The notes under the pieces were generated by a model that was not told where the DNA came from, did not search any database, and was given only the letters and a program-made list of their open reading frames with translations. Made by a program: the position numbers and the translations under genes. This document shows positions 2,612 to 21,599 of a DNA stretch of 50,766 bases, in pieces. How positions within the stretch are numbered: position 1 is the first letter of the stretch; each line of letters begins with the position of its first letter. The stretch is from Oscillospiraceae bacterium (GTDB lineage: Bacteria > Bacillota > Clostridia > Oscillospirales > Oscillospiraceae): positions 1 to 50,766 of the forward strand of contig JAGARK010000015.1 of assembly GCA_017622295.1 (NCBI GenBank). Direction: 5' to 3'.

Positions 2612-2747
2612 CGACCCAGACGTAAAATCAGTCAGGAAAACAAAAAATTTGTCAAAGTTGCAGGCTGAAACGCAGTGCTTTGCGCACGGGCCCGGCTTTA
2701 AATAAAAAGAAAAAAATTTTTATATTCATCCAAAGGAGGCAATCAAC

Positions 2748-4091
2748 ATGCTGTTAGTAGGTAACGGTAGACTCATTACCCGCGACCCTGCAAACCCCTA
2801 CCTGGTGGACGGCGCTGTCGTCATTGACGGCGAGCTCATCAAGGAGGTCGGCACCCTGGCCGAAATGAAGGCCAAGTACCCCGAAGCTGAGTTTGTGGAT
2901 GCTCAGGGCGGCGTCATCATGCCCGGTCTGATCAACGCACATACCCACATTTACTCCGGTCTGGCCCGCGGCCTGTCCATCGCCGGTAAGAACTCCAGAA
3001 ACTTCATCGAAGTCCTGGAGGACACCTGGTGGAACATTGACCGTCATCTGACCATGGATGGCACCAAGGCCTGCGCCTATGCCACCGTTCTGGACTCCAT
3101 CCGCAACGGTGTCACCACCATCGTTGACCACCACGCATCCTTCTGCGAGATCCCCGGCACCCTGTTCGCCATCAAGGACGTCTGCCAGGAAATCGGCATC
3201 CGTGCCAACCTGTGCTACGAAGTCTCCGAGCGCGACGGTGCTGTCAAGACTGAGGAAGCCATCCGCGAGAACGCTGAGTTCGCACGCTGGGCTGCCGCTC
3301 AGAACGACGACATGATCTCCGCAATGTTCGGCGGTCACGCACTGTTCACCATCTCCAACAAGACCTTCGAAAAGATGGTCGCTGAGAACAACGGTCTGAC
3401 CGGCTTCCACATCCATGTGGCTGAGGGTCTGAACGACGTTTACGACTCCCTGAACCATCATATGTGCTACCCCATCGAACGTCTGGAGCGCATCGGCGGC
3501 ATCCTGGGTCCCAAGACCATGCTGGGCCACTGCATCCACCTGACCGACTCCGAGCTGGACACCATCGCTGCCACCGGCACCATGTGCGTCAACAACCCCG
3601 AGTCCAACATGGGTAACGCTGTTGGCTGCTCCCCCGTTCTGAAGATGTTCGAGAAGGGCATCCACGTCTGCATGGGTACCGACGCTTACACCCACGACAT
3701 GCTCGAATCCCTGAAGGTCTTCCTGGTCATCCAGCGCCACAACGCCCAGAAGCCCAACGTGGCATGGGGCGAAGGCACCACCATGCTGTTCCAGAACAAC
3801 GCCAAGATGATGTCCAAGTACTGCAAGAAGCCTCTGGGCATCCTGGCTCCCGGCGCAGCAGCCGACGTCATCGTCATGGACTACAAGCCCTTCACTCCCT
3901 TCTCCGACGAGAACATCGACGGCCACATGATCTACGGCTTCATGGGCAGAAGCAACCGCACCACCATCATCAACGGCAAGGTCATCTACAAGGACCGCGA
4001 GTTCGTCAATATCGACGAGGACGCCATCAACGCTTGGACCATGGAGCAGGCTAAGAAGCTGTGGGGCCAGCTGAACAACCGCGTCTACTAA
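2748..4091 (+). CDS. ssnA: SsnA-type aminohydrolase
   Basis: A 447-residue amidohydrolase-superfamily protein closely resembling E. coli SsnA and the chlorohydrolase/aminohydrolase group. The metal motif is NAHTH (His65, His67). Further metal and catalytic motifs follow: FHIHVAEG near residue 225, LGHCIHL near 262 and MGTDAYTHDM near 312. The start has a textbook AAAGGAGG site. It is the first gene of the cluster ssnA-ygfK-xdh-ferredoxin. In E. coli and gut anaerobes ssnA is one of the genes tied to anaerobic purine/urate use, probably deaminating or hydrolysing a ring-derived intermediate, but the exact reaction is not settled. Codons are strongly biased (CTG, AAG, CCC), suggesting high expression. 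Confidence 0.9.
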   Translation: MLLVGNGRLITRDPANPYLVDGAVVIDGELIKEVGTLAEMKAKYPEAEFVDAQGGVIMPGLINAHTHIYSGLARGLSIAGKNSRNFIEVLEDTWWNIDRHLTMDGTKACAYATVLDSIRNGVTTIVDHHASFCEIPGTLFAIKDVCQEIGIRANLCYEVSERDGAVKTEEAIRENAEFARWAAAQNDDMISAMFGGHALFTISNKTFEKMVAENNGLTGFHIHVAEGLNDVYDSLNHHMCYPIERLERIGGILGPKTMLGHCIHLTDSELDTIAATGTMCVNNPESNMGNAVGCSPVLKMFEKGIHVCMGTDAYTHDMLESLKVFLVIQRHNAQKPNVAWGEGTTMLFQNNAKMMSKYCKKPLGILAPGAAADVIVMDYKPFTPFSDENIDGHMIYGFMGRSNRTTIINGKVIYKDREFVNIDEDAINAWTMEQAKKLWGQLNNRVY

Positions 4092-4128
4092 TCACAGTCA
4101 CCCTGTACAATATTTTGTAAGTCTTTTT

Positions 4129-4167
4129 GGCAGACTGCACCCTGATTGGGTTTTGGGTGCAGCTGCC
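4129..4167 (+). other. Strong intercistronic hairpin between ssnA and ygfK
   Basis: CTGCACCC (4135-4142) pairs with GGGTGCAG (4155-4162), extended by GGCAG (4129-4133) with CTGCC (4163-4167) and one bulged A. No U-tract follows, so it looks like an RNA processing or stability element rather than a terminator. Confidence 0.6.
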
Positions 4168-4197
4168 GAAATCACATAAACATTGGAGGAAACAAAT

Positions 4198-7191
4198 ATG
4201 GCAGATATTATGCGTCCCATTCCCTTTGGTCAGCTGATGACCTGGATCCTGAAGGAGAACGAGGAAAAGGGTTCCATCTTCGGCGTCGCAAAGCAGGTCC
4301 ACCACACCACCGGTAAGGCTCTGCCCATCTTCGACGAGAAGATCGAGACTCCCTACGGCCCCGCAGCCGGCCCCAACTCCCAGCTGGCTCAGAACATCAT
4401 CGCTGCTTACGCAGCAGGCTCCCGCTTTTTCGAGCTGAAGACCGTTCAGCAGATGGACGGCGAAGAGCTGAGCGAATGCGTCAACAAGCCCTGCATCACC
4501 GCAGGCGACGAGTGCTACAACTGCGAATGGTCCACCGAGCTGTACGTCCCCGAAGCATACGTCGAATACGTCAAGGCATGGTGGGCATGTAAGCTGATGG
4601 CCAAGGAACTGGGCATGGGCGATCCCGATGGCTTTGTCTTCAACATGTCCGTTGGCTACAACCTGGCTGACATCAAGAAGAACAAGACCAACTCCTACAT
4701 CGATCAGATGATGGACGCTTCCCGCACCGAGATCTGGAACTCTTGTAAGAACTGGACTCTGAATAACCTGGATATGTTCAAGAACGTCGATGCCGACTAC
4801 GTCAACAACATCTCCGCTCGCATCTCCAACTCCATCACCGAGTCCACCCTGCATGGCTGCCCCCCCAGCGAGATCGAAGCCATCGCCCGCTACCTGATCA
4901 CCGAGAAGCACCTGAACACCTACATCAAGTGCAACCCCACCCTGCTGGGCTACGAGTACGCCCGTGCCCGCATGGACTCCCTGGGCTTTGACTACGTTGC
5001 ATTCACTGACTCTCACTTCCTGACTGACCTGCAGTGGTGCGATGCAGTTCCCATGTTCGAGCGTCTGATCGCCCTGTGCGAGCAGGAAGGCGTCGAGTTC
5101 GGTCTGAAGCTGACCAACACCTTCCCCGTCGACGTCGAGGCTGGCGAGCTGCCCAGCAATGAGATGTACATGTCCGGTCGTTCCCTGTACCCCCTGTCCA
5201 TCTCCCTGGCCCGCCGCATCACCGACCAGTTTAACGGCAAGCTGCGCATCTCCTACTCCGGCGGTGCTGAAGCCCGTAACATCAAGGCCCTGTTCGATGC
5301 AGGCATCTGGCCCATCACCATGGCTACCACCATCCTGAAGCCCGGCGGATATGAGCGTATGACTCAGATCTACAATGAGCTGGGCGACTGCGGCGACCAG
5401 CGCTGGAACGGCCTGAACGTGGAAGCTGTCCGCGCTCTGGACGACGGTGTTGCCACCGACGCTCTGTACCAGAAGCCCATCAAGCCCCTGCCCGTCCGTC
5501 ACATCGGCAAGCAGGTCCCCCTGGTTGACTGCTTCAATGCTCCCTGCCGCAACGGCTGCCCCATTGAGCAGGACATCCCCGCTTACCTGACTGCTGTCGG
5601 CGAAGGCCGCATGGCTGATGCTCTGAACATCATCCTGGAGCGCAACGCTCTGCCCTTCATCACCGGTACCATCTGCCCCCACCACTGCGGCGACAAGTGC
5701 ATGCGTAACTACTACGACGAGCACGTTCACATCCGCGAGGCTAAGCTGACTGCTGCTACCGGCGCTTACGAAGATGTCATCGCTTCCCTGAAGCCCGCTG
5801 CTCCCGTGGCCGGCAAGAAGGTCGCTGTCATCGGCGGTGGCCCCGCTGGTCTGGCTGCTGCTTCCTTCCTGTCCCGCGCAGGCGTCGACGTCACTGTCTA
5901 CGAGCGCACCGACAAGCTGGGCGGCATCGTCCGTCACGTGATCCCCGAGTTCCGTATCTCCACCGCTTCCATTGACAAGGACGTGGCTCTGTGCAAGGCA
6001 TACGGCGCCAAGTTCGAGCTGAACACCGAAGTCAACTCCGTTGCTGACCTGCTGGCTGCCGGCTACACCGACGTCATCGTCGCTGTGGGCGCATGGAAGT
6101 CCGGTGCATCCGGTGTTGAGTACGGCGAGACTCTGAACGTCATCAAGTTCCTGTACGCTGCAAAGAACGCTCCCGAGACCCTGAACCTGGGCAACGACGT
6201 CGTCGTCATCGGCGGCGGCAACACCGCTATGGACGCAGCCCGCGTTGCAAAGCGTCTGGGCGCTCAGAATGTCCGCCTGATCTACCGTCGTACCAAGCGC
6301 TACATGCCCGCCGACGAGGAAGAACTGGCTGAGGCTCTGGAAGACGGTGTCGAGTTCATGGAACTGCTGGCTCCCATCGGTGTCAAGGACGGCGTCCTGA
6401 CCTGCGATGTCATGCAGCTGACCGCTCCCGACGCTTCCGGCCGTCGTGGTGTTGAAGCCACCGGCGAGAAGGTCGAGGTTCCCGCTTCCATCGTCATCAC
6501 CGCCATCGGTGAGAAGGTCGAGACCGGCCTGTACGAGGGCATCGGTGTTGAGCTGACCAAGAAGGGCACTCCCGTTGTCGATGACAACATGCAGACCTCC
6601 GTCGCTCATGTCTACGCTGTCGGTGACGGCCGCCGTGGTCCCGCTACCATCGTGGAAGGCATCGCTGATGCTGCCAAGGCTACCACCGCAATCTGCGGCT
6701 ACGACTTCGGCAAGTACACCGACGCCAACATCGAGGACGACTACCAGAAGGTCCTGGATAAGAAGGGCTCCCTGTGCGCCGACTGCTCCAGCTGCTCCGA
6801 CTCCCGCTGCCTGGGCTGCGCAACCGTCTGTGAGACCTGCGCTTCCGTCTGCCCCAACCGTGCAAACGTGGCCATCGCCGTTCCCGGCATGCGTCAGCGC
6901 CAGATCGTCCACGTGGACGGCATGTGCAACGAGTGCGGCAACTGCCTGATCTTCTGTCCCTACGATTCCCGTCCCTACAAGGACAAGTGGACTCTGTTCT
7001 GGACCGAGTGGGACTTCGAGAACTCCACCAACGCCGGCTGGCTTGAGCTGGGCGATGGCAAGGTCAAGGTCCGCCTGGGCGACTCCGTCAACGAGTACGT
7101 CGTTGCCGATGCAAACTGCGGCCTGTACGAGCCCCTGCGTCAGATCATCCTGGCTGTTGAGAACGACTACAGCTGGCTGCTGAGCAAGTAA
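4198..7191 (+). CDS. ygfK: YgfK-type multidomain flavin/iron-sulfur oxidoreductase (putative selenate reductase subunit by old name)
   Basis: 997 residues, near the E. coli YgfK length. The ATG at 4198 is chosen because a GGAGGAA site sits 7 nt before it; an in-frame TTG at 4183 would place the site inside the coding region. Domains in order: a dihydroorotate/dihydropyrimidine dehydrogenase-like barrel (about 1-430); a cysteine motif CFNAPCRNGCP (near 445) as in the iron-sulfur region of glutamate synthase and dihydropyrimidine dehydrogenase; two nucleotide-binding folds (GGGPAG near 546, GGGNTAMD near 672); and a C-terminal cysteine-rich ferredoxin region (about 860-925). This resembles dihydropyrimidine dehydrogenase, so reduction of a purine ring or intermediate with NAD(P)H or ferredoxin is plausible. 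The selenate reductase name has no support here. It sits between ssnA and the selenium-type xanthine dehydrogenase. Confidence 0.9.
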   Translation: MADIMRPIPFGQLMTWILKENEEKGSIFGVAKQVHHTTGKALPIFDEKIETPYGPAAGPNSQLAQNIIAAYAAGSRFFELKTVQQMDGEELSECVNKPCITAGDECYNCEWSTELYVPEAYVEYVKAWWACKLMAKELGMGDPDGFVFNMSVGYNLADIKKNKTNSYIDQMMDASRTEIWNSCKNWTLNNLDMFKNVDADYVNNISARISNSITESTLHGCPPSEIEAIARYLITEKHLNTYIKCNPTLLGYEYARARMDSLGFDYVAFTDSHFLTDLQWCDAVPMFERLIALCEQEGVEFGLKLTNTFPVDVEAGELPSNEMYMSGRSLYPLSISLARRITDQFNGKLRISYSGGAEARNIKALFDAGIWPITMATTILKPGGYERMTQIYNELGDCGDQRWNGLNVEAVRALDDGVATDALYQKPIKPLPVRHIGKQVPLVDCFNAPCRNGCPIEQDIPAYLTAVGEGRMADALNIILERNALPFITGTICPHHCGDKCMRNYYDEHVHIREAKLTAATGAYEDVIASLKPAAPVAGKKVAVIGGGPAGLAAASFLSRAGVDVTVYERTDKLGGIVRHVIPEFRISTASIDKDVALCKAYGAKFELNTEVNSVADLLAAGYTDVIVAVGAWKSGASGVEYGETLNVIKFLYAAKNAPETLNLGNDVVVIGGGNTAMDAARVAKRLGAQNVRLIYRRTKRYMPADEEELAEALEDGVEFMELLAPIGVKDGVLTCDVMQLTAPDASGRRGVEATGEKVEVPASIVITAIGEKVETGLYEGIGVELTKKGTPVVDDNMQTSVAHVYAVGDGRRGPATIVEGIADAAKATTAICGYDFGKYTDANIEDDYQKVLDKKGSLCADCSSCSDSRCLGCATVCETCASVCPNRANVAIAVPGMRQRQIVHVDGMCNECGNCLIFCPYDSRPYKDKWTLFWTEWDFENSTNAGWLELGDGKVKVRLGDSVNEYVVADANCGLYEPLRQIILAVENDYSWLLSK

Positions 7192-7202
7192 TTACCCATC
7201 CC

Positions 7203-7226
7203 GGGAGGGGGAGCATTCCCCCTCCC
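7203..7226 (+). other. GC-rich intercistronic hairpin between ygfK and xdh
   Basis: A perfect 10-bp stem, GGGAGGGGGA (7203-7212) with TCCCCCTCCC (7217-7226), and a 4-nt loop. A T-run occurs about 8 nt later (7237-7241), so it might act as a leaky terminator or as a 3'-end protector of the ssnA-ygfK message. Confidence 0.6.
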
Positions 7227-7258
7227 CATCCAAACTTTTTTCAAGAAAGGATTCCGCT

Positions 7259-9832
7259 ATGAGTACTTTTACCGTAAACGGCGTCCAGCATACCGTTACC
7301 GAAAAGAAGTCTCTGCTCCGTTTCCTGCGTGATGACCTGCGGCTGACCTCCGTCAAGGACGGCTGCAGTCAGGGTGCCTGCGGCGCCTGTACCGTCATCA
7401 TCGATGGTGAGACCTGCAAATCCTGCGTTCCCACCACCGACCGCCTGGACGGCAAGACCATCGTCACTGTCGAGGGTCTGTCCGATTGGGAAAAGGAGCT
7501 GTATACCTATGCCTACGGCGAAGCCGGTGCCGTTCAGTGCGGTTTCTGCATCCCCGGCATGGTCATGTGCACCAAGGCACTGCTGGACAAGAACCCCAAC
7601 CCCACCGAAGACGAAATCAAGTACGCTCTGCGTAATAACTACTGCCGCTGCACCGGTTATGTGAAGATCATCGCCGCTGTCAAGCTGGCAGCCAAGATCA
7701 AGGCTGAAGGCACCATCCCCGCTGCATCCACCACCGACTGGCATGTGGGCAACCGCGTCCATCGTCTGGACGTGGCTGAGAAGGTTCTGGGCTACGGCCA
7801 GTACCCCGATGACATCTATCCCGAGAACACCACCTATGCCGGCGCTGTCCGCAGCAAGTATCCCCGCGCCCGGGTCCTGTCCATCGACATTGAGAAGGCC
7901 AAGGCTCTGCCCGGCGTCGTTGCAGTTCTGACTGCAGCCGACATCCCCGGCGAGAATATGATCGGCCACCTGAAGCACGACCAGTACACCCTGGTTCCCG
8001 TGGGCGAACTGACCCACTACCTGGGCGATGCCATCGTGCTGATCGTCGCTGAGAGCATGGCCATCGTTGAGAAGGCAAAGAAGCTGGTCAAGATCGAATA
8101 CGAGGTACTGCCCGCCGTTACCTGCATCGCTGATGCCAAGGCAGAAGGCGCCCCCCTGGTCTTCGAGACTGACAAGTCCAACGTCCAGGCCCACGAGCAC
8201 ATCATCCGCGGCGATGCCCGCGGCCAGATTGCCAAGGCTCCTCACGTCATCTCCCACCACTTCGAGACTCCCTGGACCGAGCATGCATTCCTGGAGCCCG
8301 AGGCTACCGCAGCCTTCCTGGATGAGGACGGCGACATCTTCGTCTACTCCACCGACCAGTCCGCCCACCAGACCCTCCACGAGTGCCAGCTGCTGCTGGG
8401 CACCAAGAAGGTCAAGGTCCAGAACGCTCTGGTCGGCGGCGGCTTCGGCGGCAAGGAAGACATGACCGTTCAGCATCTGGCTGCTCTGGCTGTCTACCAT
8501 ACCCACCGTCCCGTCAAGATGAACCTGACCCGTGCCGAGTCCCTGCTGGTTCACCCCAAGCGTCACCACTTCTCCATGGACTTCACCATGGGCTGTGGTG
8601 AAAACGGCAAGATCATGGGCGTTGTGGCTGTCTGTGAGTCCGACACCGGTGCATACGCCTCCCTGGGCGGCCCTGTTCTGCAGAGAGCCTGTACCCATGC
8701 CGCAGGTCCCTACGCTTACGAGAACTTCGAAATCGAGGGCACCGCTTACTACACCAACAATCCTCCCGCAGGCGCATTCCGTGGCTTCGGCGTCACCCAG
8801 ACCTGCTTCGCCACCGAGTCCCTGCTGAACATGATGGCTGAGAAGATCGGCATCACTCCCTGGGAGATTCGTTACATCAACGCCATCCGTCCCTGGGGCG
8901 TCCTGCCCAACGGCCAGATCGTTGATGACTCCACCGGTCTGGTGGAAACCCTGGAGGCTGTCAAGCCTTACTACGATGCAGCTGTCGCTGCCGGCAAGCC
9001 TGTCGGTATCGGCTGCGCCATGAAGAACGCCGGCGTCGGCGTCGGCATCCCCGATACCGGTCGCGTCAAGCTGCTGGTCGAGAAGGACAATAAGGTCCAC
9101 ATCTACTCCGGCGCATCCTGCATCGGTCAGGGCCTGGGCACCGTTCTGGTCCAGAACGTCGTTGAGTACACCGGCCTGAACCGTGACGACATCGTCTACG
9201 AGCGCTCTCAGACCTGGTACGCTCCCGACTCCGGTACCACCTCCGGTTCCCGTCAGACTCTGGTCACCGGCGAAGCCTGCATCCGTGCATCCAAGCTGCT
9301 GAAGGAAGCTCTGGACACCGGCAAGACTCTGGCTGACCTGGTCGGTCAGGAGTTCTACGGCGAGTATCTGGCAAAGACCGATCCTCTGGGCGCCAATGTT
9401 CCCAACCCCGTGTCCCACGTTGCTTACGGCTACGCAACTCAGGTCTGCGTGCTGAACAAGAAGACCGGTAAGGTCGAGCAGATGATCGCTGCCCACGACG
9501 TGGGTAAGGCCGTTAACCCCCTGTCCTGCGAAGGCCAGATCGAAGGCGGCGTGGTCATGTCCATGGGTTACGCCCTGCGCGAGGACTATCCTCTGAAGGA
9601 CTGCAAGCCCATCGAGAAGTATGGCTCCCTGGGTCTGTTCCGCGCACATGAGATCCCCGAGATTGTGCCCATCGTTGTGGACAAGCCCGGTCTGAAGGTC
9701 GCCGGCGGCGCCATCGGCATCGGTGAGATCACCTCCATTCCCACCGCACCCGCTATCACTGAGGCTTACTACCAGTGGGACGGCGAGCGTCGTTATGCTC
9801 TGCCCATCCACGGCACGCCTTATAATAAGTAA
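7259..9832 (+). CDS. Selenium-dependent xanthine dehydrogenase / molybdenum hydroxylase (2Fe-2S and Mo domains fused)
   Basis: 857 residues. The N-terminal plant-type 2Fe-2S domain has Cys36, Cys41, Cys44 and Cys56. The second 2Fe-2S domain has Cys94, Cys97, Cys129 and Cys131. From about residue 160 the molybdopterin-binding domain follows, with GGGFGGKED near 392, AFRGFGVTQ near 505 and the catalytic-Glu motif GIGEITSIPTAP near 820. The layout matches the selenium-dependent XDH family and E. coli XdhD: no FAD domain. The enzyme oxidises purines (hypoxanthine, xanthine, or the reverse) using a Mo-pterin cofactor with a labile selenium ligand, so no in-frame selenocysteine codon is expected. 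The selenium assignment rests on the family plus nearby yqeB, yqeC and mocA-like genes. Confidence 0.9.
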   Translation: MSTFTVNGVQHTVTEKKSLLRFLRDDLRLTSVKDGCSQGACGACTVIIDGETCKSCVPTTDRLDGKTIVTVEGLSDWEKELYTYAYGEAGAVQCGFCIPGMVMCTKALLDKNPNPTEDEIKYALRNNYCRCTGYVKIIAAVKLAAKIKAEGTIPAASTTDWHVGNRVHRLDVAEKVLGYGQYPDDIYPENTTYAGAVRSKYPRARVLSIDIEKAKALPGVVAVLTAADIPGENMIGHLKHDQYTLVPVGELTHYLGDAIVLIVAESMAIVEKAKKLVKIEYEVLPAVTCIADAKAEGAPLVFETDKSNVQAHEHIIRGDARGQIAKAPHVISHHFETPWTEHAFLEPEATAAFLDEDGDIFVYSTDQSAHQTLHECQLLLGTKKVKVQNALVGGGFGGKEDMTVQHLAALAVYHTHRPVKMNLTRAESLLVHPKRHHFSMDFTMGCGENGKIMGVVAVCESDTGAYASLGGPVLQRACTHAAGPYAYENFEIEGTAYYTNNPPAGAFRGFGVTQTCFATESLLNMMAEKIGITPWEIRYINAIRPWGVLPNGQIVDDSTGLVETLEAVKPYYDAAVAAGKPVGIGCAMKNAGVGVGIPDTGRVKLLVEKDNKVHIYSGASCIGQGLGTVLVQNVVEYTGLNRDDIVYERSQTWYAPDSGTTSGSRQTLVTGEACIRASKLLKEALDTGKTLADLVGQEFYGEYLAKTDPLGANVPNPVSHVAYGYATQVCVLNKKTGKVEQMIAAHDVGKAVNPLSCEGQIEGGVVMSMGYALREDYPLKDCKPIEKYGSLGLFRAHEIPEIVPIVVDKPGLKVAGGAIGIGEITSIPTAPAITEAYYQWDGERRYALPIHGTPYNK

Positions 9833-9849
9833 GAAAGGGGAAAGAAATC

Positions 9850-10344
9850 ATGGCTGTTAAGAAGAAGTTCCCCTACAAGTCCGCTGTTGTGGCCTGCAAC
9901 GGCGGCTGCCGGGCAAGCAAGACTCCCGACGCCAAGTGTGTCTACGGCTGTATCGGCTGTGAGCAGTGCGTCATCGCCTGTAAGTTCGGCGCCATCGCCA
10001 TCAACGACCTGGGTGTTGCCGAGGTCAATGAGGAAAAGTGCATCGCCTGCGGCAAGTGCGCAACCTATTGCCCCCAGAATCTGATCCACATTCACGAAGT
10101 AGCGAACTACATCGTCGTCAAGTGCTCCAACCACGACAAGGGCAAGGACGCCCGCGCTGTGTGTGAGGTCAGCTGCATCGGCTGCGGCATGTGCGAGAAG
10201 GTCTGCACCGCCGGTGCCATCAAGGTCATCGACAATGTCGCTGTCATTGATGATGCCAAGTGCCTGAGCTGCGGCATGTGCGCCGTCAACTGCCCCCGTG
10301 GTGCGATCATCGACACCCGCGGCGTTCTGACCGGCAAATATTAA
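9850..10344 (+). CDS. RnfB-like stand-alone polyferredoxin (four 4Fe-4S motifs)
   Basis: 164 residues with four CxxCxxCxxxC motifs: CIGCEQCVIAC, CIACGKCATYC, CIGCGMCEKVC and CLSCGMCAVNC. The extra cysteines and spacing (CNGGCRASKTPDAKC, then VKCSNHDKGKDARAVC) match the C-terminal ferredoxin part of RnfB, the electron-input subunit of the Rnf complex. The membrane anchor and first cluster domain of RnfB are absent, and no other rnf gene is here. It starts 17 nt after the xanthine dehydrogenase with a good AAGGGGAAAG site, so it is almost certainly co-transcribed. I infer that it carries electrons between that FAD-less enzyme and YgfK or a ferredoxin pool. It is cytoplasmic, with no signal or membrane segment. 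Confidence 0.88.
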   Translation: MAVKKKFPYKSAVVACNGGCRASKTPDAKCVYGCIGCEQCVIACKFGAIAINDLGVAEVNEEKCIACGKCATYCPQNLIHIHEVANYIVVKCSNHDKGKDARAVCEVSCIGCGMCEKVCTAGAIKVIDNVAVIDDAKCLSCGMCAVNCPRGAIIDTRGVLTGKY

Positions 10345-10493
10345 TCCAGCTAAGCTGCCGGCAGCTCCGGCTGTCGGCGGCTCGAAAACAAAACCTTACT
10401 TTTTGTTTGGTTTTCGGTTGTGATTTTAACCAAGACGAAGCACCCGCCGCGGCTTCTTGCGCGGCCCCCTTCGGGTACAAATTTCCGCTCTAA

Positions 10494-10616
10494 AAAAACA
10501 CCCTGATTTTTTGACCCTCAATCCGCGGTTTTCTCCCCCAAAAATCGAAAAAACCGTTACGTCAGAATCAACAAAAAAACGGGTGTTTTTACCCTCGAAA
10601 ATCCGAAATTTTCTCC
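10494..10616. repeat. Direct and inverted repeats upstream of the ygeX promoter
   Basis: Inverted repeat: AAAAACACCC (10494-10503) and GGGTGTTTTT (10581-10590). Direct repeat: ACCCTC, AATCCG, NNN, TTTTCTCC at 10514-10536, again at 10591-10616 with three extra bases after ACCCTC. The matching boxes are 77-80 bp apart and the second copy ends about 20 bp before the -35 box. These are candidate regulator binding sites. Confidence 0.5.
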
Positions 10617-10637
10617 AATTATTTGGCGAAAATTCTC

Positions 10638-10665
10638 TTGACTTTCGGCCATTGCATGGTATTAT
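10638..10665 (+). promoter_or_regulatory. Sigma-A promoter for ygeX
   Basis: TTGACT (10638-10643), 16-bp spacer, TATTAT (10660-10665). The predicted 5' leader is about 70 nt before the ygeX ATG. Confidence 0.7.
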
Positions 10666-10740
10666 GGATGTATACCAAACAAAAAGTTTGTAACCAAAAA
10701 AATTTTTAGCATACAAAAATTTCTAGGAGGCTAAGAACAG

Positions 10741-11955
10741 ATGGAACCCAAAATGAAATGGAAACTGAATACCATGCCCAAGGGCGATGGTAACGAACTG
10801 GAGATCATGGCTCTGGAGAATGTCGCCAATGCTCGTGCTTTCCACGAAAGCTTCCCTCAGTACAGCATCACTCCTCTGGCTAAGCTGGACAAGATGGCTG
10901 AGTACCTGGGCCTGAACACCCTGTGCATCAAGGACGAGAGCTACCGTTTCGGCCTGAACGCATTCAAGGTTCTGGGCGGCTCCTTCGCCATGGCTAAGTA
11001 CATCGCCAAGGAACTGGGCAAGGACGTTTCCGAGATGACCTACGACTACCTGACCAGCGCCGCTCTGAAGGAAGAGTTCGGCCAGGCCACCTTCTGCACC
11101 GCTACCGACGGCAACCACGGCCGCGGCGTTGCATGGGCTGCCAACAAGCTGGGCCAGAAGGCTATCGTTCACATGCCCAAGGGTTCTTCCAAGTATCGTT
11201 TCGATAACATTGCCAAGGAAAACGCAAAGGTCACCATCGAAGAGGTCAACTACGACGAGTGTGTCCGTATTGCTGCTGCCGAGGCTGACGCTGTCGAGCA
11301 CGGCGTTATCGTTCAGGATACCGCTTGGGAAGGCTACACCGAGATCCCCAGCTGGATCATGCAGGGTTACGCTACCATGGGCAGCGAAGCTCTGGAGCAG
11401 CTGAAGGGCTACGGCGTTGAGCGTCCCGACGTCGTCATCCTGCAGGCTGGCGTCGGCTGCATGGCCGGTGCTATCTGCGCTTACATCGTCAACAGCTATC
11501 CCGACAATCCTCCCAAGATCGTCATCGCTGAGGCTGGCATCGCTGACTGCCTGTACCAGGGCGCTGTTGCCAACGACGGCAAGTACCGCATCGTTGACGG
11601 CGATCTGCAGACCATCATGGCTGGCCTGGCTTGCGGCGAACCCAACATCGTCTGCTGGGAAATCCTGCGCAACCATGTCACCGCATTCTGCTCCTGCCCC
11701 GACTGGATGGCAGCAAAGGGCATGCGTATGCTGGCAGCTCCCATCAAGGGCGACCCCGCTGTCTGCTCCGGCGAGTCCGGCGCTATCGGCATGGGCGTCA
11801 TTGTCTCCCTGATGACCGATCCCGACTACGCAGAGCTGAAGGAAGCTCTGGGCCTGAACAAGGACTCCAAGGTCCTGCTGTTCTCTACCGAAGGCGACAC
11901 CGATCCCGACAAGTACAAGAGCATTGTCTGGGGCGGCGAATACGCTACCGTGTAA
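10741..11955 (+). CDS. ygeX: 2,3-diaminopropionate ammonia-lyase
   Basis: 404 residues, fold-type II PLP enzyme. The PLP lysine is Lys76 in GLNAFKVLGG. The substrate-binding segment TATDGNHGRGVAW lies near 120 and the phosphate-cup glycines are in LQAGVGCMAGA near 240. E. coli YgeX splits 2,3-diaminopropionate to pyruvate and two ammonia molecules, by way of 2-aminoacrylate. In the urate/purine pathway this is the step that yields a central metabolite. It opens a second transcription unit behind a clear promoter, followed by ygeY and ygeW. The ATG at 10741 has a TAGGAGG site; an in-frame Met at codon 4 is a less likely start. Confidence 0.93.
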   Translation: MEPKMKWKLNTMPKGDGNELEIMALENVANARAFHESFPQYSITPLAKLDKMAEYLGLNTLCIKDESYRFGLNAFKVLGGSFAMAKYIAKELGKDVSEMTYDYLTSAALKEEFGQATFCTATDGNHGRGVAWAANKLGQKAIVHMPKGSSKYRFDNIAKENAKVTIEEVNYDECVRIAAAEADAVEHGVIVQDTAWEGYTEIPSWIMQGYATMGSEALEQLKGYGVERPDVVILQAGVGCMAGAICAYIVNSYPDNPPKIVIAEAGIADCLYQGAVANDGKYRIVDGDLQTIMAGLACGEPNIVCWEILRNHVTAFCSCPDWMAAKGMRMLAAPIKGDPAVCSGESGAIGMGVIVSLMTDPDYAELKEALGLNKDSKVLLFSTEGDTDPDKYKSIVWGGEYATV

Positions 11956-12009
11956 CCCCTTTAGCATAAGCTAAACAACATATCAATCATTTCAAGGAGG
12001 ACACTACCA

Positions 12010-13422
12010 ATGGTTAATGCAAATCTGGACTACGCTCAGATCAAGGCTGCTGCTGAGGCTTACAAGGCTGACATGGCTGCTTTCCTGCGTGCTATGATCT
12101 CCCACCCCAGCGAAAGCTGCGAAGAGGGTGCTGTCTGCGAGTGTATCAAGGCTGAGATGGAAAAGCTGGGCTTCGACGAAGTTGAATTCGACGGCCTGGG
12201 CAACGTCATCGGCTGGATGGGCACCGGCGATAAGATCATCGCCATTGACTCCCACATCGATACCGTCGGTATCGGCAACATCAACAACTGGACCCATGAT
12301 CCCTACCAGGGCTACGAAGACGACGAGGTCATCTACGGCCGCGGCGGCTCCGACCAGGAAGGCGGCATGGCTTCCGCAACCTACGGCGCAAAGATCATGA
12401 AGGACCTGGGTCTGATCCCCGAGGGCTACAAGATCATGGTTATCGGCTCCGTTCAGGAAGAAGACTGCGACGGCATGTGCTGGCAGTACGTTGTTAACAA
12501 GCACTTCCCCAAGAAGGGCATCAAGAAGGAGCAGGTCGAGTTCGTTATCTCCACCGAGCCCACCGACGGCGGTATCTACCGTGGCCATCGCGGCCGTATG
12601 GAAATCCGCGTTGACGTCAAGGGCGTTTCCTGCCATGGCTCCGCTCCCGACCGCGGCGACAACGCTATCTACAAGATGGCTGACATCCTGCAGGACGTTC
12701 GCGCTCTGAACGAGAACGACGCTGAGGAAGGCACCGAGATCAAGGGCCTGGTCAAGATGCTGGATCCCAAGTACAACCCCGACCACTACGAGGATGCTCG
12801 TTTCCTGGGCCGTGGTACCTGCACCACTTCTCAGATCTACTTCACCTCTCCCTCCCGCTGCGCTGTTGCTGACTCCTGCTCCATCTCCATCGACCGTCGT
12901 ATGACCGCCGGTGAGACCTGGGATTCCTGCCTGCAGGAGATCCGCGATCTGCCCAACGTCAAGAAGTACGGTGACGACGTCGTCGTGTCCATGTACATGT
13001 ACGATCGTCCCTCCTGGACTGGCGAAGTCTACGAGACCGAGTGCTACTTCCCCACTTGGATCAACAAGAAGGAATCCGCACACGTCAAGGCTCTGGAAGA
13101 TGCACATCTGGCACTGTTCGGCGACACCCGTACCTGCCCCAACTCCGAGATCGCTAAGGCTAAGCGCGAAGGCCGTCCCCTGACCGACAAGTGGACCTTC
13201 TCCACCAACGGTGTTGCTATCCAGGGCCGCTACGGCATCCCCTGCGTTGGCTTCGGCCCCGGTGCTGAGTCTCAGGCACACGCTCCCAACGAGATCACCT
13301 GGAAGTCCGACCTGGTTACCTGTGCAGCTCTGTACGTTGCAGCAGTCAACCTGTACGACGAGTCCAAGAAGATCGACGTTTACGAGTTCCGTGCTGGCAA
13401 GACCGACAACGAGATCCTGTAA
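12010..13422 (+). CDS. ygeY: YgeY-type M20 metallohydrolase (selenium-metabolism linked)
   Basis: 470 residues, M20 peptidase/deacylase family. Metal motifs: [10 protein letters not shown] (His near 82), [10 protein letters not shown] (Asp near 118) and VQEEDCDG (Glu pair near 154), with a C-terminal AHAPNE motif. YgeY is consistently found with ygeX, ygeW and the selenium-type molybdenum hydroxylases. It probably hydrolyses an amide or carbamoyl intermediate upstream of diaminopropionate, though the exact substrate is not established. It begins 54 nt after ygeX with a CAAGGAGG site and no promoter between, so the two are co-transcribed. It is distinct from the membrane-anchored M20 protein at 35-36 kb. 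Confidence 0.92.
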
Positions 13423-13447
13423 TCAACTGATTATGTAACCCCGGCAA

Positions 13448-13478
13448 CCTCAGAGACCGGCACCGCCGGTTTCTGAGG
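13448..13478 (+). other. Intercistronic hairpin between ygeY and ygeW
   Basis: CCTCAGA and ACCGGC (13448-13461) pair with GCCGGT and TCTGAGG (13465-13478), a 14-bp stem with one G-U pair and a 3-nt loop. No U-tract follows, so it is more likely a stability or processing element than a terminator. Confidence 0.6.
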
Positions 13479-13533
13479 AGCCATCAAAAAGTAAAAACCT
13501 TATAATAATTAATTTTAAAGGAGACTACTCAAA

Positions 13534-14733
13534 ATGGACAAGACCCTGCAGCAGTATATTGACAAGCTGAACTCCCTGAACTTCGCTGAGATGTACAACG
13601 GCGACTTCTACCTGACCTGGGACAAGACTCAGGACGAGCTGGAAGCTATCTTCACCGTCGCTGATGCTCTGCGCTACATGCGTGAGAACAACATCTGCAC
13701 CAAGATCTTTGAGTCCGGCCTGGGCATCTCCCTGTTCCGCGACAACTCCACCCGTACCCGTTTCTCCTTCGCTTCCGCCTGCAACCTGCTGGGTCTGGAA
13801 GTTCAGGATCTGGACGAGGGCAAGAGCCAGGTCGCTCACGGCGAGACCGTCCGCGAGACTGCAAACATGGTTTCCTTCATGGCTGACGTCATCGGTATCC
13901 GTGACGACATGTACATCGGCAAGGGCCACACCTACCAGAAGGAGTTCATGGACGCTGTTACCGAAGGCAATGCAGCTGGCATCCTGGAGCAGAAGCCCAC
14001 TCTGGTCAACCTGCAGTGTGACATCGACCATCCCACCCAGGCTATGGCTGACGCCCTGCACATCATCCACGAGTTCGGCGGCATCGAGAACCTGAAGGGC
14101 AAGAAGGTCGCTATGACTTGGGCATACTCTCCCTCCTACGGCAAGCCCCTGTCCGTTCCCCAGGGTATCGTTGGCCTGATGACCCGCTTCGGCATGGACG
14201 TCGTTCTGGCACATCCCGAGGGCTACGAAATCATGCCCGAGGTCGAAGAGGTTGCTAAGAAGAACGCTGAGCTGTCCGGCGGTTCCTTCACCAAGACCAA
14301 CTCCATGGCTGAAGCATTCAAGGATGCTGACGTCGTTTACCCCAAGTCCTGGGCTCCCTTCGCTGCTATGGAAAAGCGTACCGTCCTGTACGGCAACGGC
14401 GACATGGCTGGCGTCAAGGCTCTGGAGCTGGAGCTGCTGGAGCAGAACAAGGAGCACATGGACTGGTGCTGCACCGAAGAGCTGATGGCTACCACCAAGG
14501 ACGGCAAGGCTCTGTACATGCACTGCCTGCCCGCTGACATCAACGACGTTTCCTGCGTCAACGGCGAAGTCGAGGCTACCGTGTTCGATCGTTACCGCGA
14601 TCCTCTGTACATGGAAGCTTCCTACAAGCCCTACATCATCGCTGCTATGATCTTCATGGCTAAGGTCAAGAATCCTCAGGCTACCCTGAAGGCTCTGGAA
14701 GAGAAGAGCACCGCTCGTTGGTTCCAGGCTTAA
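13534..14733 (+). CDS. ygeW: Knotted carbamoyltransferase YgeW
   Basis: 399 residues, aspartate/ornithine carbamoyltransferase fold. The carbamoyl-phosphate motif STRTR is at 72-76, HPTQAMAD near 170 and MHCLPADI near 330. Length and motifs match YgeW rather than ArgF or PyrB; PyrB is encoded separately at 27.0 kb. YgeW is a trefoil-knotted transcarbamylase whose natural carbamoyl acceptor is not firmly known. In this cluster it most likely runs in the phosphorolytic direction, giving carbamoyl phosphate for the next gene, carbamate kinase. Codon bias is strong (CTG, AAG, CGT or CGC for Arg), as for its neighbours. Confidence 0.93.
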   Translation: MDKTLQQYIDKLNSLNFAEMYNGDFYLTWDKTQDELEAIFTVADALRYMRENNICTKIFESGLGISLFRDNSTRTRFSFASACNLLGLEVQDLDEGKSQVAHGETVRETANMVSFMADVIGIRDDMYIGKGHTYQKEFMDAVTEGNAAGILEQKPTLVNLQCDIDHPTQAMADALHIIHEFGGIENLKGKKVAMTWAYSPSYGKPLSVPQGIVGLMTRFGMDVVLAHPEGYEIMPEVEEVAKKNAELSGGSFTKTNSMAEAFKDADVVYPKSWAPFAAMEKRTVLYGNGDMAGVKALELELLEQNKEHMDWCCTEELMATTKDGKALYMHCLPADINDVSCVNGEVEATVFDRYRDPLYMEASYKPYIIAAMIFMAKVKNPQATLKALEEKSTARWFQA

Positions 14734-14771
14734 GTTCCTGACATCAGTTTTTACTGAAACCTAATCTAACT

Positions 14772-14812
14772 GGCCCGTACACCGCCGCACATGGGCAGTG
14801 TGCGGGCCTTTG
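14772..14812 (+). terminator. Possible weak terminator between ygeW and arcC
   Basis: GGCCCGTACAC (14772-14782) pairs with GTGTGCGGGCC (14798-14808), including one G-U pair, with a 15-nt loop and then TTTG. The short T-run suggests partial termination or 3'-end protection. arcC could be read through, or start from a weak TTGCAT/TATTTT promoter just after (14816-14843). Confidence 0.5.
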
Positions 14813-14859
14813 TACTTGCATATTCTCTATTAAAATCTATTTTTGAGGTGTTATAAATT

Positions 14860-15768
14860 ATGGGCAAGCGTATCGTTATCGCTCTGGGCGGCAACGCACT
14901 GGGCAACAATCTGCCTGAGCAGATGGAAGCTGTTAAGACCACCGCTAAGGCTATCGTTGACCTGATTGAAGAAGGCCACGAGGTTATCGTTGCTCACGGC
15001 AACGGCCCCCAGGTCGGTATGATCAAGAACTCCATGGATAAGTCCATCCCCATGTCCGTCTGCGTCGCTATGAGCCAGGCTTACATCGGCTACGACCTGC
15101 AGAACGCACTGCGTGAGGAGATGCTGTCCCGCGGCCTGAACAAGAGTGTTACCACCATTCTGACTCAGGTTGAGGTTGACGCTGCTGACCCCGCATTCCA
15201 GAAGCCCACCAAGCCCATCGGCTCCTTCATGAGCAAGGAAGAGGCTGAGGCTCTGGAGGCCAAGGGCTACACCTGCGTTGAGGACTCCGGCCGTGGCTAC
15301 CGTCAGGTTGTCGCTTCTCCCCGTCCCCAGGGCATCGTTGAGCTGAACACCATCAAGACTCTGGTCGAGGCTGGCCAGGTTGTCATCGCCTGCGGCGGCG
15401 GCGGTATCCCCGTTGTCAAGACCGAAGGCCACCACCTGAAGGGTGCTGCAGCCGTTATCGACAAGGACTTCGCTTCCTGCGTCCTGGCTCAGCAGCTGGA
15501 TGCAGACTGCCTGATCATTCTGACCGCAGTCGAGAAGGTTGCTATCCACTTCGGCAAGCCCGATGTTGAATGGCTGGCTGACCTGACCCCCGCAAAGGCT
15601 CAGGAGTACATCGCTGCTGGTGAGTTCGCTCCCGGCTCCATGCTGCCCAAGGTCCAGGCTGCTGTTATGTTCGCCGAGTCCAAGGAAGGCCGTACTGCTC
15701 TGATCACTCTGCTGGAGAAGGCTAAGGACGGCGTCGCTGGCAAGACCGGTACCGCTATCCATCAGTAA
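14860..15768 (+). CDS. arcC: Carbamate kinase
   Basis: 302 residues, amino-acid-kinase fold. It shows IALGGNALG at the N-terminus, VAHGNGPQVG near 45, CGGGGIPVV near 178 and AAVIDKD near 199. It makes ATP and carbamate from carbamoyl phosphate. E. coli has the paralogue yqeA at the same place in its purine cluster, so this copy most likely serves YgeW-derived carbamoyl phosphate rather than an arginine deiminase pathway; no arcA or argF is nearby. A strong terminator follows, closing the ygeX-ygeY-ygeW-arcC unit. Confidence 0.94.
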   Translation: MGKRIVIALGGNALGNNLPEQMEAVKTTAKAIVDLIEEGHEVIVAHGNGPQVGMIKNSMDKSIPMSVCVAMSQAYIGYDLQNALREEMLSRGLNKSVTTILTQVEVDAADPAFQKPTKPIGSFMSKEEAEALEAKGYTCVEDSGRGYRQVVASPRPQGIVELNTIKTLVEAGQVVIACGGGGIPVVKTEGHHLKGAAAVIDKDFASCVLAQQLDADCLIILTAVEKVAIHFGKPDVEWLADLTPAKAQEYIAAGEFAPGSMLPKVQAAVMFAESKEGRTALITLLEKAKDGVAGKTGTAIHQ

Positions 15769-15784
15769 TCCGCTGATCTAACCC

Positions 15785-15818
15785 AACCCACCTTGCAAAA
15801 CCGCAAGGTGGGTTTTTT
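15785..15818 (+). terminator. Intrinsic terminator after arcC
   Basis: A perfect 12-bp stem, AACCCACCTTGC (15785-15796) with GCAAGGTGGGTT (15803-15814), running into six T residues. Confidence 0.92.
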
Positions 15819-15843
15819 ACTGGTATTTTGAGAAAAGTTTTCA

Positions 15844-15872
15844 TTGACAAAAGGACTGTTTTATACGAAAAT
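15844..15872 (+). promoter_or_regulatory. Probable promoter for the hydantoinase gene
   Basis: A perfect -35 TTGACA (15844-15849), 17-bp spacer and a weak -10 GAAAAT (15867-15872). The leader before 15967 contains a CCCGG/CCGGG-type hairpin around 15893-15917. A strong -35 with a poor -10 suits an activated promoter. Confidence 0.45.
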
Positions 15873-15966
15873 TAGAGGAGATACTATTGTCCCCCGGGGC
15901 TTTATGACGAACCCGGGAATCAAGGTTTTTCTTAAAATATCAGTATCAGGAAGGTGATTTGTAATT

Positions 15967-17307
15967 ATGACGATCCTGAAAAACGGCACTCTGGTTACTC
16001 CCGATGGTCTGAAGAAGGCTGATTTGGCTTTCGAAGGCGACAAAATCATCAAAATCGGTGAAAATCTGACCGGCGAAACCATCGTGGATGTCTCCGGCTG
16101 CATCGTGTTCCCCGGCTTCATCGACGGCCACACCCATCTGGATCTGGTCAACAATCTGGGCCACACTGCCGACAATTTCGAAACCGGCTCCCGCGGCGCT
16201 GTCTGCGGCGGCACCACCACCTGCATGGACATGGCCACCCAGGAGCATGGTGACACCCTGGTCCACACCATGGAAGTCTGGAAGGATCTGGCTCAGAATA
16301 TTTCCTGCAACTACGGCATCCATATGTCCATTACCGACTGGAACGAAACCACCAAGGCAGAGATCCAGACCATGGCCGAAGAAGGCATTACCACCTACAA
16401 GACCTACACCGCCTACGGCATCGCCATCGACGACGTGGACACCATGGCTGTCCTGAAGGAGCTGAAGACCGTTAACGGCATCTGCGGCATTCACTGCGAG
16501 AACGGCCCCCTGATTCCCGTTCTTCAGAAGGAAGTTCTGGAATCCGGCATCACCAGTCCCGCCGGTCATCCCATCAGCAAGCCCGACTATCTGGAAGCAG
16601 AAGCCATCAACCGCGTGTGCTACATCGCTGAGATCGTGGACTCTCCCGTTCACATCGTTCACCTGTCCAGCAAGCTGGGTCTGGAAGAGATCCGCGCTGC
16701 CCGCAGCAGAGGCGTGACCGTTTACGCCGAGACCTGCCCCCAGTATCTGCTGTTCAACGACAGTGTCTACTCCCGGCCCGACGGCTCCAAGTGGGTCCTG
16801 AGCCCCCCCATCCGTAAGGATGAGGACATCGCCGCCCTCCACGAGGCCGTTGTCAACGGCGAGATCGGCACCATTGCTACTGACCACTGCCCCTTCAACT
16901 TCACGCTGAAGCAGTCCCAGGCTGCCAAGGGCTTCGATCAGATCCCCGGCGGCGGCGCAGGTGTCGAGCATCGTCCCGTGCTGATGATGACCCTCTTCAA
17001 GAACGAACTGGACTACGTCCAGCTCAACAAGATCCTCAGCGAAAATGCAGCCAAGCTGTTCAACCTGTACCCCAAGAAGGGTGCCCTGCTGGAAGGCTCC
17101 GACGCCGATATTACCGTCTGGGATCCCAGCGTCAAGTGGACCATTTCCGCCTCCAACCAGCACCAGAATGTGGACCATACTCCCTACGAAGGCTTTGAGG
17201 TCGAGGGCAAGGCAAAGTATGTCTACGTCAACGGCCAGCTGGCAGTCGTGGACGGCGAGCCCACCGGCGTTCAGGCAGGCACTTTCGTCCGGGCTGACTG
17301 TAATTAA
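15967..17307 (+). CDS. hyuA: D-hydantoinase / dihydropyrimidinase-type cyclic amidohydrolase
   Basis: 446 residues. The dihydropyrimidinase motifs are present: metal pair DGHTH (His55, His57), the carboxylated lysine in ITTYKTYTAYG (Lys145), HIVHLSS near 218 and IATDHCPF near 302. E. coli HyuA (YgeZ), in the equivalent cluster, is a D-phenylhydantoinase. The enzyme opens five- or six-membered cyclic ureides, which suits ring opening of an imidazolone or hydantoin-like urate product. It is a separate transcription unit between the arcC terminator and the ridA promoter. Dihydropyrimidinase in pyrimidine breakdown is the main alternative. A dedicated dihydroorotase is encoded at 22.7 kb. Confidence 0.88.
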   Translation: MTILKNGTLVTPDGLKKADLAFEGDKIIKIGENLTGETIVDVSGCIVFPGFIDGHTHLDLVNNLGHTADNFETGSRGAVCGGTTTCMDMATQEHGDTLVHTMEVWKDLAQNISCNYGIHMSITDWNETTKAEIQTMAEEGITTYKTYTAYGIAIDDVDTMAVLKELKTVNGICGIHCENGPLIPVLQKEVLESGITSPAGHPISKPDYLEAEAINRVCYIAEIVDSPVHIVHLSSKLGLEEIRAARSRGVTVYAETCPQYLLFNDSVYSRPDGSKWVLSPPIRKDEDIAALHEAVVNGEIGTIATDHCPFNFTLKQSQAAKGFDQIPGGGAGVEHRPVLMMTLFKNELDYVQLNKILSENAAKLFNLYPKKGALLEGSDADITVWDPSVKWTISASNQHQNVDHTPYEGFEVEGKAKYVYVNGQLAVVDGEPTGVQAGTFVRADCN

Positions 17308-17319
17308 TCGAAAAAACTC

Positions 17320-17348
17320 TTGTATTATCAGCGGGTTTCCGTTATAAT
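17320..17348 (+). promoter_or_regulatory. Sigma-A promoter for ridA
   Basis: TTGTAT (17320-17325), 17-bp spacer, perfect TATAAT (17343-17348), just after the hydantoinase stop. Confidence 0.8.
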
Positions 17349-17384
17349 CTAGTTATACTAAACTAACAAAGGAGAATGATTCCA

Positions 17385-17765
17385 ATGAGCAACATCGCTG
17401 TCAACACCACCAACGCTCCCGCCGCCATCGGCCCCTACTCCCAGGCCATCCAGGCCGGCAACACCATCTATGTTTCCGGTCAGCTGCCCATCGACCCCGC
17501 TACCGGCGCTTTCGCTGGTGACGAGATCAAGGCACAGACCCGTCAGAGCCTGACCAACATCAAGAACATCCTGGCCGAGGCCGGCACCGACATGTCCGCT
17601 GTTGTTAAGACCACCGTTCTGCTGGCTAACATCGCTGACTTCGCTGCTATGAACGAGGTTTACGCTGAGTTCTTCTCCGCTCCCTACCCCGCCCGTGCTG
17701 CTTTCCAGGTTGCCTGCCTGCCCAAGAACGCTCTGATCGAGATCGAGTGCGTCGCTGTTAAGTAA
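17385..17765 (+). CDS. ridA: RidA-family reactive enamine/imine deaminase
   Basis: 126 residues, the usual RidA length. The start at 17385 is preferred over an in-frame ATG at 17376 because the GGAG site (17371-17374) is 10 nt before it. Key residues are present: Tyr18 in IGPYSQA, Arg104 in YPARAAFQ and Glu120 in IEIEC. RidA hydrolyses 2-aminoacrylate and related imines released by PLP enzymes. YgeX, 5 kb upstream, makes 2-aminoacrylate in its reaction, so a housekeeping partner role in this pathway is a natural inference. It has its own promoter and a perfect terminator. Confidence 0.93.
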
Positions 17766-17780
17766 TTTAGATCCCCAAAA

Positions 17781-17810
17781 AGCGTGCTGCTCCGGCAGCA
17801 CGCTTTTTTC
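17781..17810 (+). terminator. Intrinsic terminator after ridA
   Basis: A perfect 10-bp stem, AGCGTGCTGC (17781-17790) with GCAGCACGCT (17795-17804), 4-nt loop and a T-run. Confidence 0.93.
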
Positions 17811-20741: not shown

Positions 20742-20749
20742 CGCACAAA

Positions 20750-21598: not shown

Positions 21599-21599
21599 A

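Follow-up and report, generated by a model that had tools for sequence, protein, structure and literature searches.

A polyferredoxin gene paired with xdhAC in a urate-degradation gene cluster of an Oscillospiraceae bacterium

According to the sections of a 2025 study (PMC12507026) on which we draw, the reactions of anaerobic urate degradation have been assigned by assays in vitro, some of them coupled: XdhD catalyzes the reduction of urate to 2,8-dioxopurine, the joint action of YgfK and SsnA yields mainly ureidomethyl-hydantoin, HyuA produces 2,3-diureidopropionate, the ureido groups are taken off by YgeW or UacY and by YgeY, and pyruvate is formed by YgeX. In the same sections, E. coli YgfK takes NAD(P)H, and reduced ferredoxin is proposed in general terms for the initiating molybdenum enzyme without a flavin adenine dinucleotide (FAD) subunit. 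A 2025 commentary (PMC12990295), which summarizes that study and a parallel paper, lists the physiological electron donor of the initiating enzyme XdhAC as unknown. Here, we analyzed 50,766 nucleotides of an Oscillospiraceae bacterium (contig JAGARK010000015.1 of assembly GCA_017622295.1; "the window"), in which a cluster of ten genes, ssnA to ridA, as read from these genes alone, encodes an anaerobic reductive urate pathway of known type, in a Firmicute. All evidence is computed from sequence. The pathway itself is already known; the novelty is its wiring, namely an XdhAC variant with an apparently dedicated polyferredoxin.

The E. coli cluster, xdhD-ygfM-ygfK-ssnA-hyuA-ygeWXY-yqeA in the same sections of PMC12507026, shares YgfK, SsnA, HyuA, YgeW, YgeY, YgeX, and carbamate kinase with this locus at 31-65% identity, but here a fused XdhAC stands instead of XdhD, YgfM is missing, the gene order differs, and a polyferredoxin, ridA, and a PAS regulator are added. 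The window also holds no linked urate permease of the Xan_ur family (PF00860), which is frequent in urate clusters and not defining; four Xan_ur_permease genes lie elsewhere in the assembly, on contigs C66, C45, C16, and C4. Clusters of the C. difficile and C. sporogenes type have XdhD or XdhAC without an FAD subunit, as here, insofar as PMC12507026 and PMC12990295 were consulted. The C. difficile cluster has UacX and UacY, whereas here a full-length YgfK replaces UacX and a UacY-like gene lies nearby; in further contrast to both types, YgeW and ArcC are encoded here in addition to the UacY-like gene. The consulted parts of the two papers do not name a particular ferredoxin gene linked to XdhAC, such as the one found here. 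Among the open PMC entries listed, titles and abstract openings gave no link between a polyferredoxin and XdhAC, and one of the papers cited by PMC12990295 may show the gene. The cluster genes are as follows.

2748..4091, plus strand: ssnA, aminohydrolase (NF005540, 618 bits, cut-off 444; TIGR03314, 540 bits)
4198..7191, plus strand: ygfK, full length, with FAD/NAD(P)H domain and Fe-S motifs (TIGR03315, 1299 bits, cut-off 835; Pyr_redox_2, Fer4_20)
7259..9832, plus strand: xdhAC, fused [2Fe-2S] and molybdenum subunit, proposed urate reductase (TIGR03311, Se_dep_XDH, 1174 bits, cut-off 830)
9850..10344, plus strand: fdx, polyferredoxin with four [4Fe-4S] clusters, a stand-alone RnfB-type domain (RnfB-type models cover residues 13/14-153), proposed electron partner of XdhAC from adjacency and fusions
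10741..11955, plus strand: ygeX, diaminopropionate ammonia-lyase (TIGR03528, 607 bits)
12010..13422, plus strand: ygeY, M20-family ureido hydrolase (NF009555, 602 bits)
13534..14733, plus strand: ygeW, carbamoyltransferase (TIGR03316, 778 bits)
14860..15768, plus strand: arcC, carbamate kinase (TIGR00746, 363 bits, cut-off 358; 65% identity to E. coli YqeA)
15967..17307, plus strand: hyuA, D-hydantoinase family (TIGR02033, 469 bits)
17376..17765, plus strand: ridA, Rid-family enamine/imine deaminase (TIGR00004, 177 bits)

Family calls used NCBIfam curated cut-offs and Pfam. A preliminary description of this DNA had placed these genes together on the plus strand; the positions were right, and each enzyme scores above the cut-off of a curated or Rid-family model. 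Nine consecutive full-length family matches are not chance. All ten frames are intact, the intergenic gaps from ssnA to ridA are, in order, 106, 67, 17, 396, 54, 111, 126, 198, and 68 bp, and a ygfK start at 4198 fits better than the mechanical one at 4183. By these models, the defining members of a reductive urate-degradation cluster (SsnA, YgfK, XdhAC, HyuA, YgeY, YgeX, and YgeW) are all encoded. The closest named relatives are metagenome-assembled genomes (MAGs) of Oscillospiraceae, followed mostly by Lachnospiraceae; together with the model matches and gene order, this bears out the description of a near-complete anaerobic urate set in a Firmicute, rearranged relative to E. coli. That description had also treated the reactions of SsnA, YgeY, and YgfK as unassigned and the cluster as a place to resolve them, which is not needed since these reactions are in print, in the part of PMC12507026 consulted. 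It listed the polyferredoxin without a role.

XdhAC and its polyferredoxin neighbor

The polyferredoxin gene starts 17 bp 3' of xdhAC and encodes 164 aa with four C2C2C3C motifs. To place this arrangement, the best 80 of 102 loci found with XdhAC relatives were taken with flanks of up to 10 kb and annotated with window and E. coli proteins, under adjacency rules that allow a ferredoxin frame to start inside xdhAC. At 55 loci, XdhAC is at least 65.5% identical to that of the window; a ferredoxin lies directly downstream in 45, is fused in three, and is missing in two, while five are cut too close to judge. The 25 loci below 65.5% comprise one with a ferredoxin upstream (L160), 22 with none, and two that are cut. 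Among assessable loci, XdhAC thus has an adjacent or fused ferredoxin in 48 of 50 at or above the line and in 1 of 23 below it. An earlier count under narrower rules gave 34 downstream, three fused, one upstream, 35 none, and seven cut. Some rows are imperfect: XdhAC frames are partial in L187, L190, and L192, and L143 has a three-motif ferredoxin frame.

The pair stays together while its neighbors change. Upstream of the 45 adjacent pairs lie ygfK (20 loci), a yqeB-like gene (14), hyuA (1), ygeX (1), or other genes and contig ends (9), and 12 combinations of labels on both sides occur, with "other" and contig ends counted as labels. The ferredoxin precedes xdhAC in L160 and in genome G357; in the latter, the ferredoxin is 45-47% identical, XdhAC lies only partly in the stretch covered, and the pair is on contig C14 with ssnA-ygfK on C22. 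In 29 loci, the stretch covered contains no ssnA; 12 genomes were picked from these, and SsnA exceeds its cut-off elsewhere in 11 of them, the miss being the L181 genome. The 12 loci comprise nine with a downstream ferredoxin, one fusion (L157), and two with none (L154 and L194). Named isolates in which a ferredoxin adjoins XdhAC include Blautia wexlerae (L161), Coprococcus catus (L125), and Schaedlerella arabinosiphila (L124).

Three XdhAC proteins are fused to a ferredoxin. The L176 tail corresponds to nearly the whole window polyferredoxin (51% identity), the L146 tail of two clusters matches its C-terminal half (58% over 57 residues), and the L157 tail is a distant four-motif ferredoxin (31-35% in overlapping pieces); Pfam detects Fer4 domains in the fused XdhAC of L157 and L176. 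An XdhAC tree was built from 80 rows, comprising the window, 70 of the 80 loci, and nine others, after removal of cut rows and of those shorter than 800 aa. In it, the fused rows stand in three places and need three changes, and the starred branches force three, by a quick method with Shimodaira-Hasegawa-like approximate likelihood ratio (SH-aLRT) support only. By the usual gene-fusion argument, the three fusions are strong evidence that ferredoxin and XdhAC work together.

The polyferredoxin itself passes Pfam Fer4 cut-offs and no NCBIfam cut-off among the 25 models shown; its best NCBIfam matches are Fe-S/RnfB models below cut-off (NF005505 and NF041836), and its best PDB matches are RnfB structures (9eri and 7zc6). 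It aligns to RnfB-type models only from model position 111-136 on, leaving out the N-terminal part, which we take to be the membrane anchor of RnfB. The protein is thus best described, from these alignments, as a stand-alone form of the RnfB C-terminal region. It shares that region with the RnfB of the Rnf complex but, at 164 aa and with the N-terminal part missing, falls on the other side of an unrooted ferredoxin tree of 75 rows, in which a branch (98/89) parts XdhAC-linked rows from 26 RnfB-like genus frames taken by length and motif count. Ten XdhAC-linked rows and the L176 tail lie nearer RnfB than the remainder, and the L157 tail sits on a very long branch. Within the genus, 4 of 136 genomes, including this one, have a match above 80% identity, always next to xdhAC; the remaining genus matches listed (1e-20 or better) show 36-47% identity, in frames of 242-315 aa. 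In a class survey of 391 genomes, with nine candidates scored per genome, the genome studied here and G357, which both have a urate cluster, were the two with a match at 1e-36; YgfK was over its cut-off in nine. An RnfB-like frame and two Rnf-Nqr genes lie together on contig C68 of the assembly studied here.

XdhAC contains only Fer2, Fer2_2, Fer2_3, Ald_Xan_dh_C, MoCoBD_1, and MoCoBD_2 domains in Pfam, with no FAD and no Fer4 domain. Likewise, no xanthine-dehydrogenase-type FAD domain of the YgfM kind occurs among the 18 window proteins scanned with Pfam, including all listed genes from 1899 to 22373. The nearest solved relatives, 1dgj and 1sij, align over the whole XdhAC length; we take them to be single-chain aldehyde oxidoreductases of the Desulfovibrio type that lack FAD. 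They represent a different family, as the corresponding model NF045668 reaches 474 against a cut-off of 1100. XdhAC exceeds the TIGR03311 cut-off and scores far under that of TIGR03313. A search for TIGR03311 in 99 relatives, with this genome included, gave matches above cut-off in three: G000, the genome studied here, and G059, among 61 genus genomes, and G094 from the same order. The window also encodes two maturation proteins.

20792..21637, minus strand: yqeB, selenium-molybdenum cofactor maturation (TIGR03309, 350 bits)
21600..22373, minus strand: yqeC, selenium cofactor maturation (TIGR03172, 208 bits)

The label "selenium-type" in the preliminary description is retained with qualification: selenium itself is invisible in sequence, and XdhAC is a putative selenium-type molybdenum hydroxylase because it matches TIGR03311, the window encodes YqeB and YqeC, and the assembly carries selD, albeit on C66, a contig that may not belong to the genome. 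A mocA-like gene at 28450-29025 matches TIGR03310 below its cut-off; this gene and yqeB/yqeC flank a region, 22651-28336, read here as a pyrimidine operon.

Proposed electron route and alternative explanations

A model of the pathway is proposed from these gene identities. XdhAC would convert urate to 2,8-dioxopurine, YgfK would reduce the 2,8-dioxopurine ring with electrons from NAD(P)H, SsnA would open the ring, and HyuA would form diureidopropionate. Ureido groups would be removed by YgeW, whose carbamoyl phosphate ArcC would use to make ATP, by YgeY, and perhaps by the UacY-like enzyme; YgeX would then yield pyruvate and ammonia. Removal of 2-aminoacrylate is an established RidA role, and RidA would here clear the 2-aminoacrylate released by YgeX; homologs above 40% identity occur in 9 of 51 loci with ssnA. 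RidA fits the cluster because, for Salmonella, the portion of PMC9127364 consulted reports 2-aminoacrylate as a compound released by diaminopropionate ammonia-lyase. Electrons would pass from reduced cellular ferredoxin to the polyferredoxin, on to the [2Fe-2S] clusters, and finally to the molybdenum site of XdhAC, and the RnfB-like frame and two Rnf-Nqr genes on C68 could link the two electron pools. We conclude from adjacency and fusions that the polyferredoxin is the likely electron partner of XdhAC, and it probably drives urate reduction by this enzyme. Taken as a whole, a reductive urate pathway in which XdhAC is fed through a dedicated polyferredoxin, and YgfK separately by NAD(P)H, appears to us a likely account of the locus.

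Several observations weigh against this account. The 65.5% dividing line was set after the data were seen. A ferredoxin partner is not universal among XdhAC relatives, since 22 of the 23 assessable loci below the line have none adjacent, and L154 and L194 lack one despite lying above it. Because every locus was selected for its similarity to this XdhAC, a single ancestral pairing may account for most of the 45 adjacent cases. The fusions are all found in MAGs, L176 is cut at the N terminus, and L146 keeps two clusters only. Finally, the identity of XdhAC to the E. coli proteins is only 26% for XdhD and 29% for XdhA, and Glu606 of XdhD, a suggested helper in setting urate chemistry, lies inside an insertion absent from every aligned TIGR03311-type row; reading the XdhAC substrate from this residue was thus impossible. 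L154 and L194 are sisters in the XdhAC tree, beside the L157 fusion with its more distant ferredoxin, and the original ferredoxin partner may have been lost and replaced in this group.

The near-equal distance to XdhA and XdhD would also suit an ordinary oxidative xanthine dehydrogenase, from which the polyferredoxin removes electrons while another enzyme reduces urate, as would the name of TIGR03311 (selenium-dependent xanthine dehydrogenase) and a second full-length TIGR03311 protein on G000:C66, a contig that may not belong to the genome. We regard this explanation as unlikely: XdhAC lies between ygfK and ygeX in a urate cluster, the C. sporogenes XdhAC reduces urate (PMC12990295), and SsnA is encoded in 11 of the 12 tested genomes with an unlinked XdhAC. 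Furthermore, separate homologs of XdhA (10 of 51), XdhB (8 of 51), and XdhC (8 of 51) occur in ssnA loci, and a conventional xanthine dehydrogenase is therefore present there.

It is very improbable that the polyferredoxin serves YgfK or general metabolism, with its adjacency to xdhAC due to chance or shared regulation. All the genes possibly form one transcription unit and YgfK also carries an Fe-S motif, but the three fusions are to XdhAC, none of the ygfK frames listed from the 80 loci has four motifs, no more than 20 of 45 loci have ygfK directly upstream of the pair, and G357 has the ferredoxin and XdhAC on one contig and ygfK on another. On the fusions and G357, the ferredoxin was rejected as a YgfK partner. 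Equally improbable is a cluster that was acquired and is now idle or decaying: the patchy occurrence of close polyferredoxin relatives (4 of 136 genus genomes, this one counted) and the lack of a Xan_ur permease in the window would agree with it, against ten intact frames, high codon adaptation (below), and the four Xan_ur_permease genes on other contigs, C66 among them.

The ferredoxin pairing bears on the published question of the XdhAC electron donor and names one gene family that fits. Since the ferredoxin lies beside XdhAC in named culturable isolates, the donor question can be put to a direct test. Its answer matters for which gut bacteria can degrade urate efficiently and for what an engineered uricolytic strain would require beyond the pathway enzymes.

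Upstream genes, candidate operators, and expression signals

The cluster reaches upstream of ssnA, where the preliminary description had listed neither of two minus-strand genes, a regulator and a UacY-like gene. These and the expression signals of the cluster are as follows.

1..1494, minus strand: UacY-like amidohydrolase of the D-aminoacylase type, truncated by the contig end (open frame of 498 aa; NF006560 below cut-off)
1899..2546, minus strand: regulator with PAS_6 and HTH_22 domains, divergent from ssnA (Pfam PF08348, PF13309)
2640..2652, plus strand: candidate operator ACAAAAAATTTGT in the regulator/ssnA gap (pattern ACAAANNNTTTGT)
10638..10665, plus strand: promoter-like site of ygeX, TTGACT-16-TATTAT (promoter scan; largely conserved in three related clusters)
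10679..10691, plus strand: second candidate operator ACAAAAAGTTTGT (pattern ACAAANNNTTTGT), just past the -10 element of the ygeX promoter
15785..15814, plus strand: terminator-like stem 3' of arcC, 12 pairs followed by a T run

Homologs of the regulator above 45% identity occur in 20 of the 51 fetched XdhAC loci that hold ssnA. A tblastn search at 1e-15 over the fetched related loci, L089, L205, and the window found UacY-like homologs at 78-89% identity in L120/L084 (one place), L121, and L145 and at 85% in L205. It also found homologs at 31-35% in L193 and L082, two loci whose YgfK is short and of the UacX type and whose covered stretch contains no ygeW. Both kinds of ureido-removing enzyme, YgeW and UacY-like, may therefore be present together in this cluster.

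Contig C66 (G000:C66:62287-66545; L205:14288-18546) carries the left part of the cluster a second time, at 84% DNA identity over 4.3 kb. This copy has the UacY-like gene, the regulator, ssnA, and the start of ygfK and runs off the contig end; either it is a true second cluster or the contig comes from a related species binned with the genome. C66 also carries the selD match and one permease. The second full-length homolog of selenium-dependent xanthine dehydrogenase (G000:C66:765-3359; L002) is 49% identical and has no adjacent ferredoxin; the gene 3' of it was labeled by reading as a LysR-type regulator.

The palindrome ACAAANNNTTTGT is a candidate operator of the cluster. It occurs twice in the window against 0.03 expected, and a longer operator pattern recovered the same two sites. 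The 1.99-Mb assembly has it in three places, all at urate clusters; the third precedes ssnA of the second copy at the end of C66 and was for that reason rejected as an additional regulon member. In 1.88 Mb of related loci, some overlapping, there are seven sites, with the window and L205 counted. Five of the seven precede ssnA or ygeX in this genus group; one in L131 is a reversed 13-mer identical to ACAAAAAGTTTGT, just 5' of a permease gene, and one inside xdhAC of L193 was taken as chance. Against the operator reading, L120 has neither site intact, and the ygeX sites of L121 and L145 differ in the spacer or end.

The codon adaptation index (CAI) was computed against 12 ribosomal-protein genes on contig C43, of which L2 was named by search and the other 11 by our own reading. 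The ten genes from ssnA to ridA range from 0.642 to 0.870, and seven exceed the ribosomal mean of 0.746, in keeping with the high-expression codons described before; xdhAC (0.740), fdx (0.642), and hyuA (0.653) fall below it. The regulator has 0.482 and the UacY-like gene 0.400, and 24 other window genes, several labeled by reading translations, span 0.257-0.762. Strong promoters had also been described, and this applies to the ygeX site, the signals elsewhere being weaker; a scan of the two strands of 1800-20800 gave 14 promoter-like sites where 6.8 would be expected. By-eye alignments, partly poor, of related clusters upstream of ygfK, ygeY, ygeW, arcC, hyuA, and ridA showed no common motif, and a tRNA scan and an Rfam scan of the window at the gathering threshold gave no matches. 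Instead of at least four units, as previously described, the cluster would comprise three or four transcription units, because a terminator-like stem follows arcC and the 68-bp gap between hyuA and ridA has no scan-positive plus-strand promoter.

A broader scenario is possible, and we offer it tentatively. An RnfB-derived polyferredoxin may have split off and been captured by a molybdenum hydroxylase, so that, in gut Lachnospiraceae and Oscillospiraceae, the low-potential ferredoxin pool would have urate as a terminal electron acceptor, and urate reduction would compete with the Rnf pump or be coupled to it. Urate, signaled through the PAS/HTH regulator acting at ACAAANNNTTTGT, would in that case serve as fuel and electron sink alike, with ribosome-like expression of the cluster.

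Further observations beside the cluster

Directly 3' of ridA lie trkA-trkH, a potassium uptake pair adjoining an ammonia-releasing pathway; the promoter-like site that precedes them (17847-17875, 11 of 12) is among the two best of the scanned region. In the consulted sections of PMC12507026, Chloroflexota are said to lack the upstream enzymes and to have a putative F420-dependent one. Among the fetched loci, L166 and L167, from MAGs titled Chloroflexota, carry XdhAC (60% identity), SsnA (36-37%), and long YgfK frames (51%, 972-975 aa) together.

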